From: Bacteroidota bacterium
GTDB lineage: Bacteria > Bacteroidota > Ignavibacteria > UBA10030
DNA length: 64,000 nucleotides
Assembly: GCA_021813905.1 (NCBI GenBank)
Contig: JAKAJH010000002.1
Span: forward strand, 62,001 to 126,000
Direction of reading: 5' to 3'
Of the stretch, positions 43,768 to 51,867 are shown piece after piece (the stretch's first letter is position 1; each line of letters starts with the position of its first letter). The position numbers and the translations under genes were made by a program. The notes under the pieces were generated by a model. The model saw nothing but the letters and a program-made list of their open reading frames with translations, was not told the origin of the DNA and did not search any database.

Positions 43768-45081
43768 ATGGAAATCCTCAGCACCCTCTTCTATTTTATT
43801 GTGACCATCGGCGTCCTGGTGTTTGTGCACGAGCTGGGGCATTTTCTTGCCGCCAAGTTCTTCCGGATGCGGGTGGACGTGTTCAGCATCGGCTTTCCGC
43901 CGAGGGCATTCGGCAAGAAGATCGGCGACACCGACTACTGCGTTTCCTGGGTTCCGATCGGCGGCTACGTGAAGATTGCCGGCATGATCGACGAGAGTTT
44001 CGACACCGAGTTCGTCGACAAGGAGCCGCAGCCGTGGGAATTCCGGTCGAAGCCGGCGTGGCAGCGGATCATTGTGCTTTCCGCGGGCGTGGTGATGAAC
44101 ATCCTCCTGGCGATCGCGATCTTCTGGGGGATCATTTATCATCAGGGGCGTATCCTGCGGCCGGTCACAGAGATCGGATACGTCACGCCGAACAGTGCGG
44201 CGGCGAAAGCGGGATTTGAGGCGAACGATCGCGTCGTGTCAGTCAACGGCACGCCGGTCCGCGAATGGGATGACATCGAAGGCGCGCTCTACACGGACGG
44301 GATGGGGAACGATGTGATCTATCAGATTGACCGCGCCGGGAGCCCGGTGACGATCCGCATCCCGCCTTCGACGATCCCGGGGCTCGCGGACGCGCGGTTC
44401 GGGATCCTGCCGGCCGGCCTGGTGGCCGTTGTCGGAAGCGTTGAGCGGGGAAAGCCGGCACAGGCGATCGGTCTGCAGGCCGGAGATACGATCGCGGCGG
44501 TGAATGCCGTGTCCGTGAGTTACGGATCGCTGCCGGATGCGATCCACGCATCCGTCGGGAAACCGCTGCAACTGATGTGGAGGCGCGACGGCCGGACGAT
44601 GGAAGCGATGGTGACGCCGACAAATGAAGGCCGGATCGGCATCACGCTGAGCGCGGCGTACACCGGACCGATCGTGCACGAGCGGTACGGATTGTTCGAA
44701 GCGCTCCCGGTGAGCGTGAATGAAGTGGTGGCGACGAGCGGACTCTTCCTGCAGAACATCTATCAGATTGTCATCGGCAATGTGTCGCTCTCGAAATCCG
44801 TCGGAGGTCCCATCCGCATCGCGCAGATGGCGAATCGTTCCGCGGAAAGCGGCGCAGCGAGCTTCCTCGGGTTCATGGCGCTGCTGAGCGTAAGTCTGGC
44901 GCTTCTGAATATTCTGCCCTTTCCGGCCCTCGACGGCGGGCACATCGTGTTCGTGGCGTATGAGGGTATTTTCCGGCGGGAGGTGCCTGCGAAGGTGAAG
45001 ATCGCCGTGCAACGCGCGGGATTCGTCTTGCTGCTGGCGTTCATGGCGTTTGTCATTTATAACGATATCGTGACGTTTTGA
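43768..45081 (+). CDS. rseP: Site-2 protease family RIP metalloprotease
   Basis: FVHELGHFLAAKFFRM, PDZ domain, NILPFPALDGGHIVF. Confidence 0.93.
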   Translation: MEILSTLFYFIVTIGVLVFVHELGHFLAAKFFRMRVDVFSIGFPPRAFGKKIGDTDYCVSWVPIGGYVKIAGMIDESFDTEFVDKEPQPWEFRSKPAWQRIIVLSAGVVMNILLAIAIFWGIIYHQGRILRPVTEIGYVTPNSAAAKAGFEANDRVVSVNGTPVREWDDIEGALYTDGMGNDVIYQIDRAGSPVTIRIPPSTIPGLADARFGILPAGLVAVVGSVERGKPAQAIGLQAGDTIAAVNAVSVSYGSLPDAIHASVGKPLQLMWRRDGRTMEAMVTPTNEGRIGITLSAAYTGPIVHERYGLFEALPVSVNEVVATSGLFLQNIYQIVIGNVSLSKSVGGPIRIAQMANRSAESGAASFLGFMALLSVSLALLNILPFPALDGGHIVFVAYEGIFRREVPAKVKIAVQRAGFVLLLAFMAFVIYNDIVTF

Positions 45082-45090
45082 AGGGTTTTC

Positions 45091-45108
45091 CCGTGACATT
45101 TGTCACGG
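45091..45108. promoter_or_regulatory. CRP-type palindrome upstream of FecR/adenylate-cyclase locus
   Basis: CCGTGACATTTGTCACGG contains GTGA-N6-TCAC; a TATGTT -10-like hexamer lies at 45129-45134. Confidence 0.5.
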
Positions 45109-45168
45109 CCGCTCAGTGAAGGCTAGTGTATGTTTGCGGTACTCAACTCTTCCATAAGGAGCAAGTGT

Positions 45169-46281
45169 ATGCACAGCCGTGCTACTCTGTGGAGCCTCGC
45201 GGTGACCGGCATCGCGATCCTGTTGCTCGTCGCCCTGCCGTCGGTTGCTCCTGCGCAGCAGCAACCCCCGCTGACCGGCGTTGCATTCGTCCTGCCGACG
45301 CTGGATTACGACGTCGTCTACCTGGCGGATTTTCTCGACGTGACCACCGGCAAGCTCGCATCGAGCATCCCGAATTTCTCGGGCGAGATACGACCGGTTC
45401 CCTCGAATGGTCAGGGAAACATCTTCCTGCGCCTCCGGGCGTACATCAAGCTGCAGGGAGACGCATCGCCCAACCTCTTGGTCCAGGCAGAAACAAAGGG
45501 GTTCACTCTTGAGGCTAAGCCACTAATCATATCTTCGCGTGATTTTGCCCAGGGCAGCGAAAAGATCCAAGTTCATAGCTGGTCCGAGGACAAGACGCAG
45601 CGCCAACGAATCGAGGATTACGTCGCACGATTCCCGACCGCACCGGTCGGCACGTACACCTTCGTCCTAGAGGCGTACGACCAATCGACGCAGCAGTTGA
45701 TCGGCAGCATCTCGAAGGACATCAACGTCCGTAATGCTTCTCCCGAGGAGGTGGTGGTTTCTCTTATCGATCCCCAGCCGGGCGCGGTGGTGGCGACGCT
45801 GCTTCCGACCTTCTCCTGGAGTTCTCCGAATTCCGACGTGACGCTGATGGTGTACGAGAAGCTTCCGGTTCAGCGGACGCCGCAGGAAGCGACGGCCGGT
45901 ATTCCGCACCTTAACGTGGATCTCAGTGGTGTCTCGACATACACGTACCCGCTGAGCGGCGCGCGGCGGCTGGAGAACGGCAAGACGTACGTCTGGTTCG
46001 TGCGGACGAAAGTGAAGACGAATCGCGGCGCCGTCAACCGGGACAGCGATCTGCGCGTGTTCCGCGTGCAGATGGGTGACGAGCGAGCGCAGCAGCTGGA
46101 ACAGTTCCTGAACACGCTGGGCGGAAACGCGGCCGGTACGCTGGCGACCCTGGAAAGCATGGGTTGGATCCCGCGCGGCGAGATGACGCTGGACGGCAAG
46201 CGCCTGACGATGGAAGATTTGAACAAGCTGCTGAACGAGCTCAACGCCAAGAACGTCCAGCTTCAGGTTCGCGTGGAATAA
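45169..46281 (+). CDS. Hypothetical exported protein
   Basis: Signal peptide and Ig-like/FN3-like beta region; ATG 45169 preceded by aggagc. Confidence 0.7.
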   Translation: MHSRATLWSLAVTGIAILLLVALPSVAPAQQQPPLTGVAFVLPTLDYDVVYLADFLDVTTGKLASSIPNFSGEIRPVPSNGQGNIFLRLRAYIKLQGDASPNLLVQAETKGFTLEAKPLIISSRDFAQGSEKIQVHSWSEDKTQRQRIEDYVARFPTAPVGTYTFVLEAYDQSTQQLIGSISKDINVRNASPEEVVVSLIDPQPGAVVATLLPTFSWSSPNSDVTLMVYEKLPVQRTPQEATAGIPHLNVDLSGVSTYTYPLSGARRLENGKTYVWFVRTKVKTNRGAVNRDSDLRVFRVQMGDERAQQLEQFLNTLGGNAAGTLATLESMGWIPRGEMTLDGKRLTMEDLNKLLNELNAKNVQLQVRVE

Positions 46282-46312: not shown

Positions 46313-47071
46313 ATGAAACGAATTGCATTGCTTACCGCCATCGCGGCGCTCATCCTGCTGCTGAACGTCGGCTGGCAGAATCCGCAGGACAAGCACGACA
46401 TCGCGGCGTATATCGTCAAGGTCGTGCGGGATGTGAAGAAACGCTCCACCACCACCGGCTGGCAGACCGCGGTTCCGCTCGATCGGCTGAAGTCCGGCTA
46501 TCAGGTCCGCACGGAAGAATCGTCGCTGGCGATGATCAAGTTCGCCGACAACTCGAAACTGATCGTGCGCCAAAAATCGATCGTGGACATCAAGGGCGAA
46601 GTGCGCGGCAGGCAGATCCTGGACCGGAACGTGTACACCGAGCGCGGGAACATTCAATTCAACGTCGTGAAGCAGGAGCGGGAACAGTTCCGCTTCTCGT
46701 CGCCGGTGTCGGTCGCCTCGATTCGGGGCACCGAAGGCGCGTTCATTGCCGGCGTGGACAGCGTGGACAACCTGATCATCATTCACGGGCTTGCCACGCT
46801 GACCAATCTGCTCTCGAATCAGTCGCAGGATGTGGGGAACGGGCAGACCGGCAGGTCGGATGGTCATGGGAACGTAGGCGTGCACAACTCCTCGAACGAC
46901 GAGCAGAACATGGGCACGGACAACCCGAACAGCCCCTACAACCAGGGACTGCAGGAGGGACAGCAGGGAGGGCAGCAGGGTGATCAGGGGAAGACGAAGC
47001 GCACGCTGCGGATCCCCGGCGAGGACAAGGACGGCAACACGAAAACCATCATTCTGGAATGGGAAGAATAG
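46313..47071 (+). CDS. FecR-domain protein
   Basis: LDRLKSGYQVRTEESSLAMIKFADNSKLIVRQKSIVDIKGE...SPVSVASIRGTEGAF; Gly/Gln-rich C-terminal region. Confidence 0.85.
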   Translation: MKRIALLTAIAALILLLNVGWQNPQDKHDIAAYIVKVVRDVKKRSTTTGWQTAVPLDRLKSGYQVRTEESSLAMIKFADNSKLIVRQKSIVDIKGEVRGRQILDRNVYTERGNIQFNVVKQEREQFRFSSPVSVASIRGTEGAFIAGVDSVDNLIIIHGLATLTNLLSNQSQDVGNGQTGRSDGHGNVGVHNSSNDEQNMGTDNPNSPYNQGLQEGQQGGQQGDQGKTKRTLRIPGEDKDGNTKTIILEWEE

Positions 47072-47122
47072 GCCTGCGGCGTTCCGGCTCGCCTTGATTT
47101 CCGTTGCTCCATTCTCTATTTT

Positions 47123-47162
47123 AAGCGGCAGCAGGATCACCTGTTGCCGCTTTTCCTTTTTT
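47123..47162 (+). terminator. Strong Rho-independent terminator downstream of FecR gene
   Basis: AAGCGGCAGCAGG-ATCA-CCTGTTGCCGCTT stem (13 bp) then TTCCTTTTTTT. Confidence 0.85.
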
Positions 47163-47209: not shown

Positions 47210-49663
47210 ATGAGACTTCTTGCTGTCCTCAGCGCCCTTGCCGTTCTCACCGTTGCTGCATACGGTCAACCGACCATTCTGCGGGTGAATGTTCCCGCCG
47301 CCAACGAACGGACCGCCCTTTCCATCAGCGCGGACCTCGCACAGAGTACCGACGTTCAGCAGGTGAACTTCTGGTACCGCGGATTCGGCGAGAGCGAATT
47401 CCAGCGGCTTGAAATGCTCCTGGCCGGCCGTACTGCCACGGTGACGCTCCCCGCGCAAGCCGTGCGTCCTCCGTATGTGGAATACTACGTTCAATTGATA
47501 AAGACCAGCGGGCAGGAAGAGACCTATCCCGCTGACGGCCCGCAGGCGAATCCGCTCAGGATCGAGGTGCAACAGGCGAACCCGAAGGACAAAGAAGTGC
47601 GGATTCTCAGTCCCGAACCCGGCGAGACGGTCGCCGCAGAGGACCTGGTGGTCGCGATTTCGCTGTTCTATGCCAGTCCGGCGGTCGATCCGAAGCGAAC
47701 GCGCATCTATCTTGACGGCACGGACGTTTCCCGGAACGCGATCCTTTCGGACGATGTGATCCTGTATTCGCCGAAGAACTTTGACCGGCCGCTCAACCTG
47801 GGCGCACACTTCCTGAAGATCGAACTGCGCGACACGAGCGGAAATCTCTATCATACGGTGCAGGAGACATTCAGCCTCTCCACGGCGGCGGCGATCGCCG
47901 AAGCGAAAGCGCGGCTCCAGGCGATCGGGAGCGCGCAGCTGGAAGTGCGGAACGAAGATCTTTCCACCAGCAATATCACCTATGTCCGGGGCGATGCACG
48001 GGTCGATGCGAATTATCAATCGATGAGCTTCGGCGCGAATGTGCACCTGGACAACCAGGACAAACCCGAGCGTCAGCCGCAGAACCGGTTCCTCGCGTAC
48101 GGCCAGACGAGCTTCCTGCGTCTCCAGCTTGGCGATGCATTTCCCAAGTTCCCGACGTATGTGATGAACGGCCAGCGTGTCCGCGGCGTAACCGGCAACC
48201 TGGCCCTCGGATTTTTCAACCTGGATGTGACGTACGGTCAGACGCTGCGACGGATCGAAGGCACGCGCTCACCGAGAGATACCGTGTTCGCGGATTCGTC
48301 CAGCGTGGATGCGCGTCCAAAGAATTCCATCCAAACGGGCGACTATTATACGTACAACATCTACGCGCCCGGCACATTCAACCGCACCCTGCTTGCCGTG
48401 CGTCCCAGCTTCGGCAGCGGCGAGCATTTCCAGCTGGGCTTCACTTACATGCACGCGATCGACGATACCGCGTCGATCCAGCTCGGCACCTCGCCCAAGG
48501 AGAATCTGGTCCTGGGATCCGACTTTCTGCTGGCGTTCGACGATCAGCGGGTGAAGCTCGAGGCGCAGGCATCGGTGGCGGTCAACAACACGGATATCAC
48601 GGGCGGGAGCTTCACGCAGGCGCAGTATGATTCGCTGAAAGTGCAGAACCCTTCCACGGGCCAGGACCTCGAGCGGCTCGGCAAGATCGCCGACAAGTTC
48701 ATCGTGGTGAACCAGAATCTGTTCCCGACGAACCCCATCAGCACCGGACTGCCGGGCATCGCCGCCGAAGCGGTGCTGAGCCTGAACTACTTCAGCAACT
48801 ATCTGCGCGCCACCGCGTTCCATCGCGGCGCGGGCTACCGGTCGTTCGGCAATGAGTTCCTGCAGACCGACCTTGCCGGATTCCAGGTGTCGGATAATAT
48901 CCGCCTGTGGCAGAATCGTCTCTTCGGCAGCCTTTCGTACGAGCGGAAGCAGGACAACACCGCGTCGCAGAAAGAGATCACCACCACCTATTCCAACATC
49001 AATACCTCGGTGACGGTCCTGCCCGGCATCGGCTTGCCGACCGTTCAGGTGGGGTTCGGGCAGTTCTCGCGCTCGGGACCCATCGACCTGAATACGCGGC
49101 TTCTGCTCAGCAACCGTCCGGATTCGGCCGGCGCGATGTACTCCTCCGACGAGGCGACGAACCGGTACTTCCTGGGTGCGTCGTACGATTTTGCGGGACG
49201 GATCCGGCACACCGCGGCGCTGAGCGTCAGCCTTGCCGACCGCGTGGACCGAACATTTCGCAAGCAGAACCAGACCAACCTGTATCTTCAGGGATCGCTG
49301 ACCTCACGCTTTCCCGGCGGATTGCAGACGCTGGCGAGCATCATCTACAGCGGCAACAAGAACGAGAACGAAGCATTCTACGCAACCACACCGCTGATGA
49401 ACCAGGACAGCGCTCTGGTGGTCACAAACTTCAATTACACCATGGTCAATCTCGGCGCGCAGTATCTGCTGCTGGATGAGACCCTGCGCATTGCAGCGAA
49501 CATCGCCCCGTCCTTCGGGGCGTTCTCCCGACAGGACTACACGGCCTCCGTGGAGTACACCTATGTCCAGCGGCACAACTTCCTGCTGCAGGCCGACTAT
49601 GTGCAGAACTCCGGCATGCGGGATGACTCCATCCTGAGCTTCATCTATCGCTTCACATTCTGA
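47210..49663 (+). CDS. Putative outer-membrane protein (beta-rich, possible barrel)
   Basis: Signal peptide; long region of alternating amphipathic strands; C-terminal aromatic ending SILSFIYRFTF. Confidence 0.65.
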   Translation: MRLLAVLSALAVLTVAAYGQPTILRVNVPAANERTALSISADLAQSTDVQQVNFWYRGFGESEFQRLEMLLAGRTATVTLPAQAVRPPYVEYYVQLIKTSGQEETYPADGPQANPLRIEVQQANPKDKEVRILSPEPGETVAAEDLVVAISLFYASPAVDPKRTRIYLDGTDVSRNAILSDDVILYSPKNFDRPLNLGAHFLKIELRDTSGNLYHTVQETFSLSTAAAIAEAKARLQAIGSAQLEVRNEDLSTSNITYVRGDARVDANYQSMSFGANVHLDNQDKPERQPQNRFLAYGQTSFLRLQLGDAFPKFPTYVMNGQRVRGVTGNLALGFFNLDVTYGQTLRRIEGTRSPRDTVFADSSSVDARPKNSIQTGDYYTYNIYAPGTFNRTLLAVRPSFGSGEHFQLGFTYMHAIDDTASIQLGTSPKENLVLGSDFLLAFDDQRVKLEAQASVAVNNTDITGGSFTQAQYDSLKVQNPSTGQDLERLGKIADKFIVVNQNLFPTNPISTGLPGIAAEAVLSLNYFSNYLRATAFHRGAGYRSFGNEFLQTDLAGFQVSDNIRLWQNRLFGSLSYERKQDNTASQKEITTTYSNINTSVTVLPGIGLPTVQVGFGQFSRSGPIDLNTRLLLSNRPDSAGAMYSSDEATNRYFLGASYDFAGRIRHTAALSVSLADRVDRTFRKQNQTNLYLQGSLTSRFPGGLQTLASIIYSGNKNENEAFYATTPLMNQDSALVVTNFNYTMVNLGAQYLLLDETLRIAANIAPSFGAFSRQDYTASVEYTYVQRHNFLLQADYVQNSGMRDDSILSFIYRFTF

Positions 49664-49674
49664 CCGAGGCAGGC

Positions 49675-51867
49675 ATGACCCTGTACGATTTCAAGAAGAA
49701 GGCCCTTCCCCTGCTGATCAAGGCGGGGATCGGCCTGGGGATCGGCGTACTCATCGCGCTCCTTACGCAGGGATACATCTTTGACATCGGCCTGCTGAAG
49801 GATGTGGATCTGCTGACGATCGACTACCGGTTCCAGAACCGCTCGTCCGCGGTCAAGGATGTGAAGAACGACGGCGACGTCGTGATCGTGGGGATCGACG
49901 ACGACGACCTGAAGGCGCTGCCGGAGAACTTCCCGTTCCCGCGCTCCTATTACGCGCACCTCATCGAGAACCTGGAGCGGGCCGGCGCGCGCGTCATCGC
50001 GTTTGATATTACCTTTGAATCTCCGGGCCGCGGGGATTCGGCTCTGGCGGCGGTACTGTCCCGGTATGACAATGTGGTCCTGGCCGCCAAGGTGCAGACC
50101 GGCGAGGTGACGTCGCAGTACGAGGTCCGGTCGCTCGTGCAGAACTACAACAACGTGTTCTTCGATTACGACAAGCAGGTCGGCATCGTCAATATTTACA
50201 AGAACCGGGACGATGTCTGCCGCGAGTATCTTCCGATGATCCTGATCGGCGACCGGCTGACGCCGACCTTCGCGTTTGCCGCATTGGACCGGGCGTTCCG
50301 CTTCCCGCCGCTGACTCACGTCCAGCCGACCAACGACGGATTCGTGTTCTCGCGGGATCGCGTGATCCCCAAATACACATCCTCGACGTTCATGCTGAAC
50401 TATTACGGCCCGAACAAGACCTTCCGGTACGTGCCGTTCTCACAGGTCATCGACGACGAGACCTTCCGCACGAAGGATGAGATCGACCTGGACGCGGATG
50501 TGAACGCGTTCGACGAGGACATGATGAAGCTCTTCCGCAACAAGATCGTGCTCGTGGGCTCGACGATGGCGGAGGAGCGCGACTATCACAGCACGCCGAT
50601 GTATGTGGTCGACGGGGGAAAGAAGAACTTCACGATGAACGGAGTGGAAATTCACGCCACGGCGATCCAGAACGTCATCGACCGGAATTTCATCAGCCGC
50701 ATGTCGCCGGTCACCGAAGTCCTTCTGATCCTCGTGTTGTCGATCATCGGGTTCATGGGACTTCTGGCGCTGAAGCAGGTGCACGTTCGGTATGCATGGC
50801 TGATGGAGGTGGGGGCGTTCTTTCTGATGCTGGCGATGATTGCGGGCGTCTTCGAGATCGGCGTGCTGGTCTTCTCGGGCTCGAACGTCATGATGAATAT
50901 CGTCAACCCGAGCCTGGCGATCGTGGTGGCGTACATCGGAACGGCGGTCTATCAGTATCTGGAAGAACGGCAGCAGAAAGCGATGATCAAGGGAGTGTTC
51001 AGTCACTACATCAACCCGTCGGTGGTAAACGAACTGGTGGCGAATCCGGAGAAGGCCAAGCTGGGCGGCGACCGGCGTGAGCTGACCGTGTTCTTCTCGG
51101 ACATCGCGGGATTCACGTCGATCTCGGAGAAGTTTCACAGCAAGCCGGAAGCCCTCGTGGAGCTGCTGAACGAGTATCTCGACGAGATGACGAGCATCGT
51201 GCTGAAGTACGAGGGGACGCTGGACAAGTACGAAGGGGACGCGATCATGGCCTTCTGGGGTGCGCCGATCCCGCAGAAGGACCACGCGCTCCGCACCTGC
51301 CTGGCGGCGCTCGACATGCAGAAGCGCCTCGCGCAACTGCGGGTCAAATGGGCCAAAGAAGGAAAACCCCAGATGGAGGTGCGGTGCGGCATCAACACCG
51401 GCATCATGATCGTGGGAAATATGGGAGGCAAGGAGCGGTTCGACTACACGGTCATCGGCGACAGCGTGAACCTCGCCTCGCGGCTCGAAGGCGCGAACAA
51501 GCAATACAACTCGCGCATCATGATCAGCGATATGACCTTCCAGCATGTGAAGGGGAAGATGGTGGTCCGGGAACTGGACCTGATCCAGGTGAAAGGCAAG
51601 AACGAGCCGGTCAAGGTGTATGAATTGCTCGGAACAACCGACCTCGTGATGACCCCCGAGCAGAAGCAATCGCTCGAGGTGTACGCCGAAGGTCTGCGGC
51701 TCTACCGCGAACGCAAATGGGAAGAAGCGATCGCCTACATGCAGCAGGCGCATACGCTGGACCCGTCCTGCTATGCGGCGCAGATCTACACCGAACGCGC
51801 GGGTCTGTACCAAATCACCGCGCCGCCGGCGGATTGGAACGGCGTGTTCGTGATGACAACCAAATGA
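49675..51867 (+). CDS. CHASE2-domain class III adenylate/guanylate cyclase
   Basis: N-terminal TM and CHASE2-like VDLLTIDYRFQNR...VVIVGIDDDDL, TM cluster, then cyclase domain ELTVFFSDIAGFTSISEKF...DKYEGDAIMAFWGAP...INTGIMIVGNMGG...YTVIGDSVNLASRLE. Confidence 0.93.
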   Translation: MTLYDFKKKALPLLIKAGIGLGIGVLIALLTQGYIFDIGLLKDVDLLTIDYRFQNRSSAVKDVKNDGDVVIVGIDDDDLKALPENFPFPRSYYAHLIENLERAGARVIAFDITFESPGRGDSALAAVLSRYDNVVLAAKVQTGEVTSQYEVRSLVQNYNNVFFDYDKQVGIVNIYKNRDDVCREYLPMILIGDRLTPTFAFAALDRAFRFPPLTHVQPTNDGFVFSRDRVIPKYTSSTFMLNYYGPNKTFRYVPFSQVIDDETFRTKDEIDLDADVNAFDEDMMKLFRNKIVLVGSTMAEERDYHSTPMYVVDGGKKNFTMNGVEIHATAIQNVIDRNFISRMSPVTEVLLILVLSIIGFMGLLALKQVHVRYAWLMEVGAFFLMLAMIAGVFEIGVLVFSGSNVMMNIVNPSLAIVVAYIGTAVYQYLEERQQKAMIKGVFSHYINPSVVNELVANPEKAKLGGDRRELTVFFSDIAGFTSISEKFHSKPEALVELLNEYLDEMTSIVLKYEGTLDKYEGDAIMAFWGAPIPQKDHALRTCLAALDMQKRLAQLRVKWAKEGKPQMEVRCGINTGIMIVGNMGGKERFDYTVIGDSVNLASRLEGANKQYNSRIMISDMTFQHVKGKMVVRELDLIQVKGKNEPVKVYELLGTTDLVMTPEQKQSLEVYAEGLRLYRERKWEEAIAYMQQAHTLDPSCYAAQIYTERAGLYQITAPPADWNGVFVMTTK

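Follow-up and report, generated by a model that had tools for sequence, protein, structure and literature searches.

A conserved CRP-type site at class II spacing upstream of geneA–fecR in an Ignavibacteria locus that ends with a CHASE2 cyclase gene

The window analyzed here is a 64,000-nucleotide stretch of a Bacteroidota genome of the Ignavibacteria lineage (contig C28:62001-126000; the genome comprises 3.08 Mb in 90 contigs). Within it, a CRP-type palindrome lies between rseP and a group of genes on the same strand that ends with a CHASE2 nucleotide cyclase gene. The features of the locus are as follows.

43768–45081, plus strand: rseP, an M50 site-2 protease and the upstream neighbor (Pfam Peptidase_M50 and PDZ).
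45091–45108, no strand assigned: CRP-type operator, CCGTGACA-TT-TGTCACGG, with its core at 45093–45106; kept in 27 of 27 family-level loci.
45129–45134, plus strand: −10 element TATGTT, its TA at identical spacing in 26 of 27 loci.
45141, plus strand: predicted transcription start, counted from the −10 element.
45156–45161, plus strand: ribosome-binding site AAGGAG of geneA, read from the sequence.
45169–46281, plus strand: geneA, predicted to encode a secreted protein that has two Ig/FN3-like domains and helices at its C-terminus; orthologs occur in relatives.
46313–47071, plus strand: fecR, a secreted FecR-domain protein (Pfam FecR, 32.4 bits; cut-off 24).
47094–47122, plus strand: putative second promoter, TTGATT-N17-TATTTT, upstream of omp–cyclase; TTG-N20-TANN[TC]T is present in 14 of 18 genomes.
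47123–47159, plus strand: predicted terminator hairpin with a 13-bp stem (47123–47152) and a T-rich tail; −23.2 kcal/mol, abutting the second −10.
47210–49663, plus strand: omp, predicted to form an N-terminal Ig-like part and a large outer-membrane beta-barrel (AlphaFold2 pLDDT 80.8).
49675–51867, plus strand: CHASE2 class III nucleotide cyclase (Pfam), with the catalytic residues D476, K518, D522, N599, and R603 invariant in an alignment of 12.

No Pfam family matched geneA, for which Foldseek returned only generic Ig/FN3 matches; the Foldseek matches of omp were to barrels, with low TM-scores only. With its secreted Ig-like protein, FecR-domain protein, barrel, and CHASE2 cyclase, and by analogy with the S. 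meliloti and Campylobacterota systems described below, the locus is probably a trans-envelope signaling or envelope-sensing module. In some relatives (L096 and L106), fecR is far longer, at 552 to 565 aa versus 252 here, and in several relatives further omp-like Ig segments separate fecR from omp.

At 45091–45108 the window reads CCGTGACATTTGTCACGG, of which GTGACATTTGTCAC (45093–45106) forms the core. The initial annotation described this element as a perfect palindrome. Its two 8-nt arms, CCGTGACA and TGTCACGG, indeed match exactly, but the TT at the center is not its own complement, and the symmetry extends to 16 of 18 positions. The TATGTT hexamer occupies 45129–45134, as originally reported, and its first base is 22 nt after the 14-mer core. 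Half of the 14-mer (7) plus 22 gives 29 bases from the center of the palindrome, 45099.5, to the first base of the −10, which corresponds to −41.5 for a −10 whose last base is −7; the count made in the initial annotation, with +1 at 45141, therefore stands. Class II sites are known to be centered at −41.5 (PMC5957442). Counting in the E. coli manner is reasonable because the second promoter of the locus suggests that TTG-N20-TANNTT is usual for promoters of this clade.

Judged by sequence alone, GTGA-N6-TCAC is not rare in the window: it occurs three times versus 1.15 expected, and 11 of 100 shuffles reach three. Such a frequency would be compatible with a palindrome that arose by chance. The longer pattern GTGACA-N2-TGTCAC has a single match in the 3.08-Mb genome. 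A genome scan for GTGA-N6-TCAC, which had been suggested as a check, returned only the 45091 site once TANNTT was required 20 to 24 nt downstream; because the reversed-pattern control likewise gives one match, genomic uniqueness alone proves little. Across 41 genomes, matches to the strict class II pattern beyond this locus were near the level of the reversed-pattern control. A recurrent class II-pattern match, GTGAGCGACTTCAC...TGGTATGTT, was discarded as a regulon member because it looks like conserved coding sequence. Separately, GTGACTCGAATCAC recurs with class II spacing in several relatives (L192 and L198), where it precedes a transcript-like hairpin region with no obvious protein start; these sites may mark a further target of the CRP-family regulator or belong to an RNA gene. 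A conserved site was also sought upstream of crp itself, and none was found.

The decisive evidence is conservation rather than rarity of the sequence. The relatives obtained by protein search are MAGs labeled Ignavibacteria, Ignavibacteriae, or Bacteroidetes, and the gene order dxr–rseP–site–geneA–fecR–omp–CHASE2 cyclase is kept across the family. When the region upstream of orthologous loci was compared, as had been proposed, GTGA-N6-TCA was present after rseP in 27 of 27 distinct family-level loci of the same gene order, a count in which the invariance of these letters is by construction, the pattern requiring them, but the presence in every locus and the spacing are not. The 27 loci include family members whose geneA is too divergent for the protein search, and the site lies mostly 9 to 24 nt past the rseP stop codon, where the chance expectation for GTGA-N6-TCA is approximately 0.004 per 60 nt. 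In 26 of the 27 loci, the TA that opens the −10 element lies exactly 22 nt past the 14-mer, and TANNTT occurs at any other distance in at most 2 of 26. There is no conserved −35, with TTG in the −35 region of 1 of 26 loci. These data support the class II CRP-type promoter without a good −35 described in the initial annotation, whose site recurs throughout the family-level loci examined, past rseP and at a conserved distance from the −10. The blocks that stand out as strongly conserved in a column-by-column profile are both half-sites, with the bases next to them, and the TA..TT of the −10. Most columns between the two boxes are near random, and shared ancestry of the flank thus does not explain the conservation of the site. 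Because the site is conserved at the same place and spacing, we judge the observation to be real; conservation refutes a chance palindrome, the probability of which is negligible.

Beyond the family, some more distant families retain GTGA-N6-NCAC in this position; in others, the position holds a terminator or no such element. L120, in which rseP has 60.7% identity and the cyclase only 43%, lies outside the family and is without the site. In one outside family (L115, L023, and L024), a GC-rich terminator with a T-run follows rseP, replacing the CRP-type site.

An inverted repeat just past a stop codon might instead function in RNA, as a terminator or mRNA-end structure of rseP. The operator hairpin is without a U-tract, in agreement with the initial annotation, and the operator strand folds no more stably than shuffles (z −0.21). 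Across the family it is base identity that is kept, not pairing: 0 pairs had both sides changed, and this lack of compensatory changes led us to reject an RNA hairpin at the operator. The distance to the −10 is moreover fixed, and no RNA family was found at the site. Together, these data make an RNA element highly improbable.

A search of the genome for CRP/FNR homologs, another of the checks originally suggested, yielded a single CRP-type regulator, the only HTH_Crp_2 protein above the cut-off in the 90-contig assembly; HTH_Crp_2 matches were present in 41 of 41 genomes. Its gene, crp, lies outside the window and is split, the N-terminal part ending at the start of contig C41 and the C-terminal part beginning at the end of C62, and intact orthologs share 65 to 89% identity across the order. 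The overlap at this contig break (L060, L059, and L005) is 5 bp only, and the gene is intact in relatives. The recognition helix reads SRETVSR in the protein of this genome and in orthologs across the order, and thereby carries the CRP-type RE..R; in E. coli CRP, the Arg-Glu-Arg of this helix reads GTGA. The phosphate-binding cassette, GE...R(S/T)A, is found as FGEMSLLDGMARSA and is conserved in the orthologs, which suggests that the regulator binds a nucleotide. The CRP helix-turn-helix was absent from the other cyclic-nucleotide-binding proteins that were read in the genome. We link the regulator to the site by the logic of the recognition helix and because the 90-contig assembly holds no second CRP/FNR protein. 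A palindrome by itself does not reveal which protein binds it. Because the site overlaps the −35 region, a protein bound there could also block the polymerase, as a repressor at its operator would; another dimeric regulator that is not a CRP-type protein could likewise own the site. Either assignment is very unlikely, given the exact class II spacing, the lack of a −35 to compete for, and half-sites of the kind that the sole CRP/FNR protein should read, judging from its recognition helix.

The conserved site, its exact spacing, the missing −35, and the conserved CRP-type regulator make it very likely, with a probability of about 85%, that geneA–fecR is driven by a class II CRP-family promoter lacking a −35, as predicted from the sequence. 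The palindrome would be the binding site of the single CRP/FNR-family regulator of the genome, whose dimer would sit at −41.5, in place of a −35, and recruit RNA polymerase to TATGTT at 45129–45134, from which geneA–fecR would be transcribed. We infer activation rather than repression from the position of the site and the missing −35.

Between fecR and omp, the pattern TTG-N20-TANN[TC]T was found in 14 of 18 genomes, versus a mean of 0.69 and a maximum of 4 in mononucleotide shuffles, and was missing from the remaining 4. The hairpin at 47123–47152 is followed by TTCCTTTTTTT as its T-rich tail; strong hairpins with drifting stem sequence occupy the fecR–omp gap in most of the 18 genomes, and none of 200 shuffles folds as well as the hairpin region (z −3.21). 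The CsrC family of Rfam also matched the hairpin weakly (19.2 bits versus a gathering threshold of 61), most probably for no other reason than that each ends in a terminator. A transcript derived from upstream would form the full terminator, and one starting approximately 7 nt past the second −10 would be without the outer portion of its 5′ arm; positions 47094–47159 look like an insulator between two units. Because a conserved sigma70-type promoter and a terminator hairpin lie between fecR and omp, omp–CHASE2 cyclase is probably a separate, CRP-independent unit. It would be transcribed from the promoter at 47094–47122 and insulated from the geneA–fecR unit by the terminator that abuts the second −10, although terminator read-through into omp–cyclase is possible.

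This arrangement bears on the proposal in the initial annotation that the locus forms a cAMP–CRP feedback loop, in which the class II promoter would drive all genes through the CHASE2 cyclase, whose cAMP would activate the regulator. In every family-level locus reaching that far, the cyclase gene does follow on the same strand, its catalytic residues are intact, and the regulator carries a cyclic-nucleotide-binding cassette. However, the conserved terminator hairpin and the TTGNTT-N17-TANNTT promoter separate fecR from omp, and the genome encodes three other class III cyclases. The ligand is a further difficulty. In E. coli CRP, Thr127 and Ser128 of the C-helix contact the adenine N6. These residues are not kept, the aligned residues being Ala and Asp in the protein of this genome and in its orthologs; TTHB099 was aligned through the PDB search. 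Because the two positions are Ala-Asp, as in the cAMP-independent TTHB099, cAMP is no more than a candidate ligand. The proposed transcriptional feedback on the cyclase is thus unlikely, and we do not retain it. Tentatively, the barrel and CHASE2 cyclase, expressed from the insulated promoter, might signal to the CRP-family regulator, and the secreted Ig-like and FecR proteins of the module itself would be the class II target of that regulator with the deepest conservation; the loop would then be closed at the protein level, not by cyclase transcription, and the ligand might not be cAMP.

As a type of site, the class II CRP operator is already known. For this lineage, we found no description in the literature of the deep conservation of the site or its linkage to an NsrA/CHASE2/Clr-like envelope module, and none of a CRP regulon for this uncultured lineage. 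The site offers a concrete, deeply conserved candidate target for the one CRP-family regulator of the lineage, and lets the need of this regulator for cAMP be tested. It further links a CRP-type operator with a cluster of CHASE2 cyclase, FecR, and outer-membrane barrel, a combination so far mainly worked out in Sinorhizobium meliloti, and the promoter abutting a terminator between two units is a testable insulation device.

The site resembles E. coli class II CRP promoters in its GTGA-N6-TCAC core, its predicted center at −41.5, the 29 bases to the −10, and the lack of a −35. It differs in its outer bases, which are C and G here and in relatives mostly a 5′ T and a 3′ C, compared with TGTGA..TCACA in E. 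coli, and in its regulator, which belongs to another subgroup than E. coli CRP. Among PDB entries, the regulator matches TTHB099 best (122 bits); this is a CRP/FNR protein of Thermus thermophilus (PDB 4ev0), and both proteins have Ala-Asp at the adenine-contact positions. TTHB099 binds DNA without cAMP and prefers TGT(A/g)...(T/c)ACA (PMC7662524), whereas the site here is GTGA-N6-TCAC.

The closest parallel by component types is the NsrA–CyaD1/D2/K–Clr pathway of S. meliloti, in which an outer-membrane barrel, CHASE2 class III cyclases, and a CRP-family regulator are likewise all present. There, the response of the CHASE2 cyclases to an external protein requires the barrel NsrA, and Clr targets include the FecR-domain protein SMc02177 (PMC5498481, PMC7529298, PMC13001267). 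The genes are clustered here, unlike in S. meliloti, and the likeness is one of component types. Clusters of CHASE2 cyclase and FecR genes are also known in Campylobacterota (PMC9239204), where, as here, the CHASE2 cyclase adjoins a FecR-domain gene. Those clusters instead have a phosphodiesterase, a TPR gene, and a FecR-domain outer-membrane protein, whereas in the present locus FecR and the barrel are separate genes, accompanied by geneA and a CRP-type operator.
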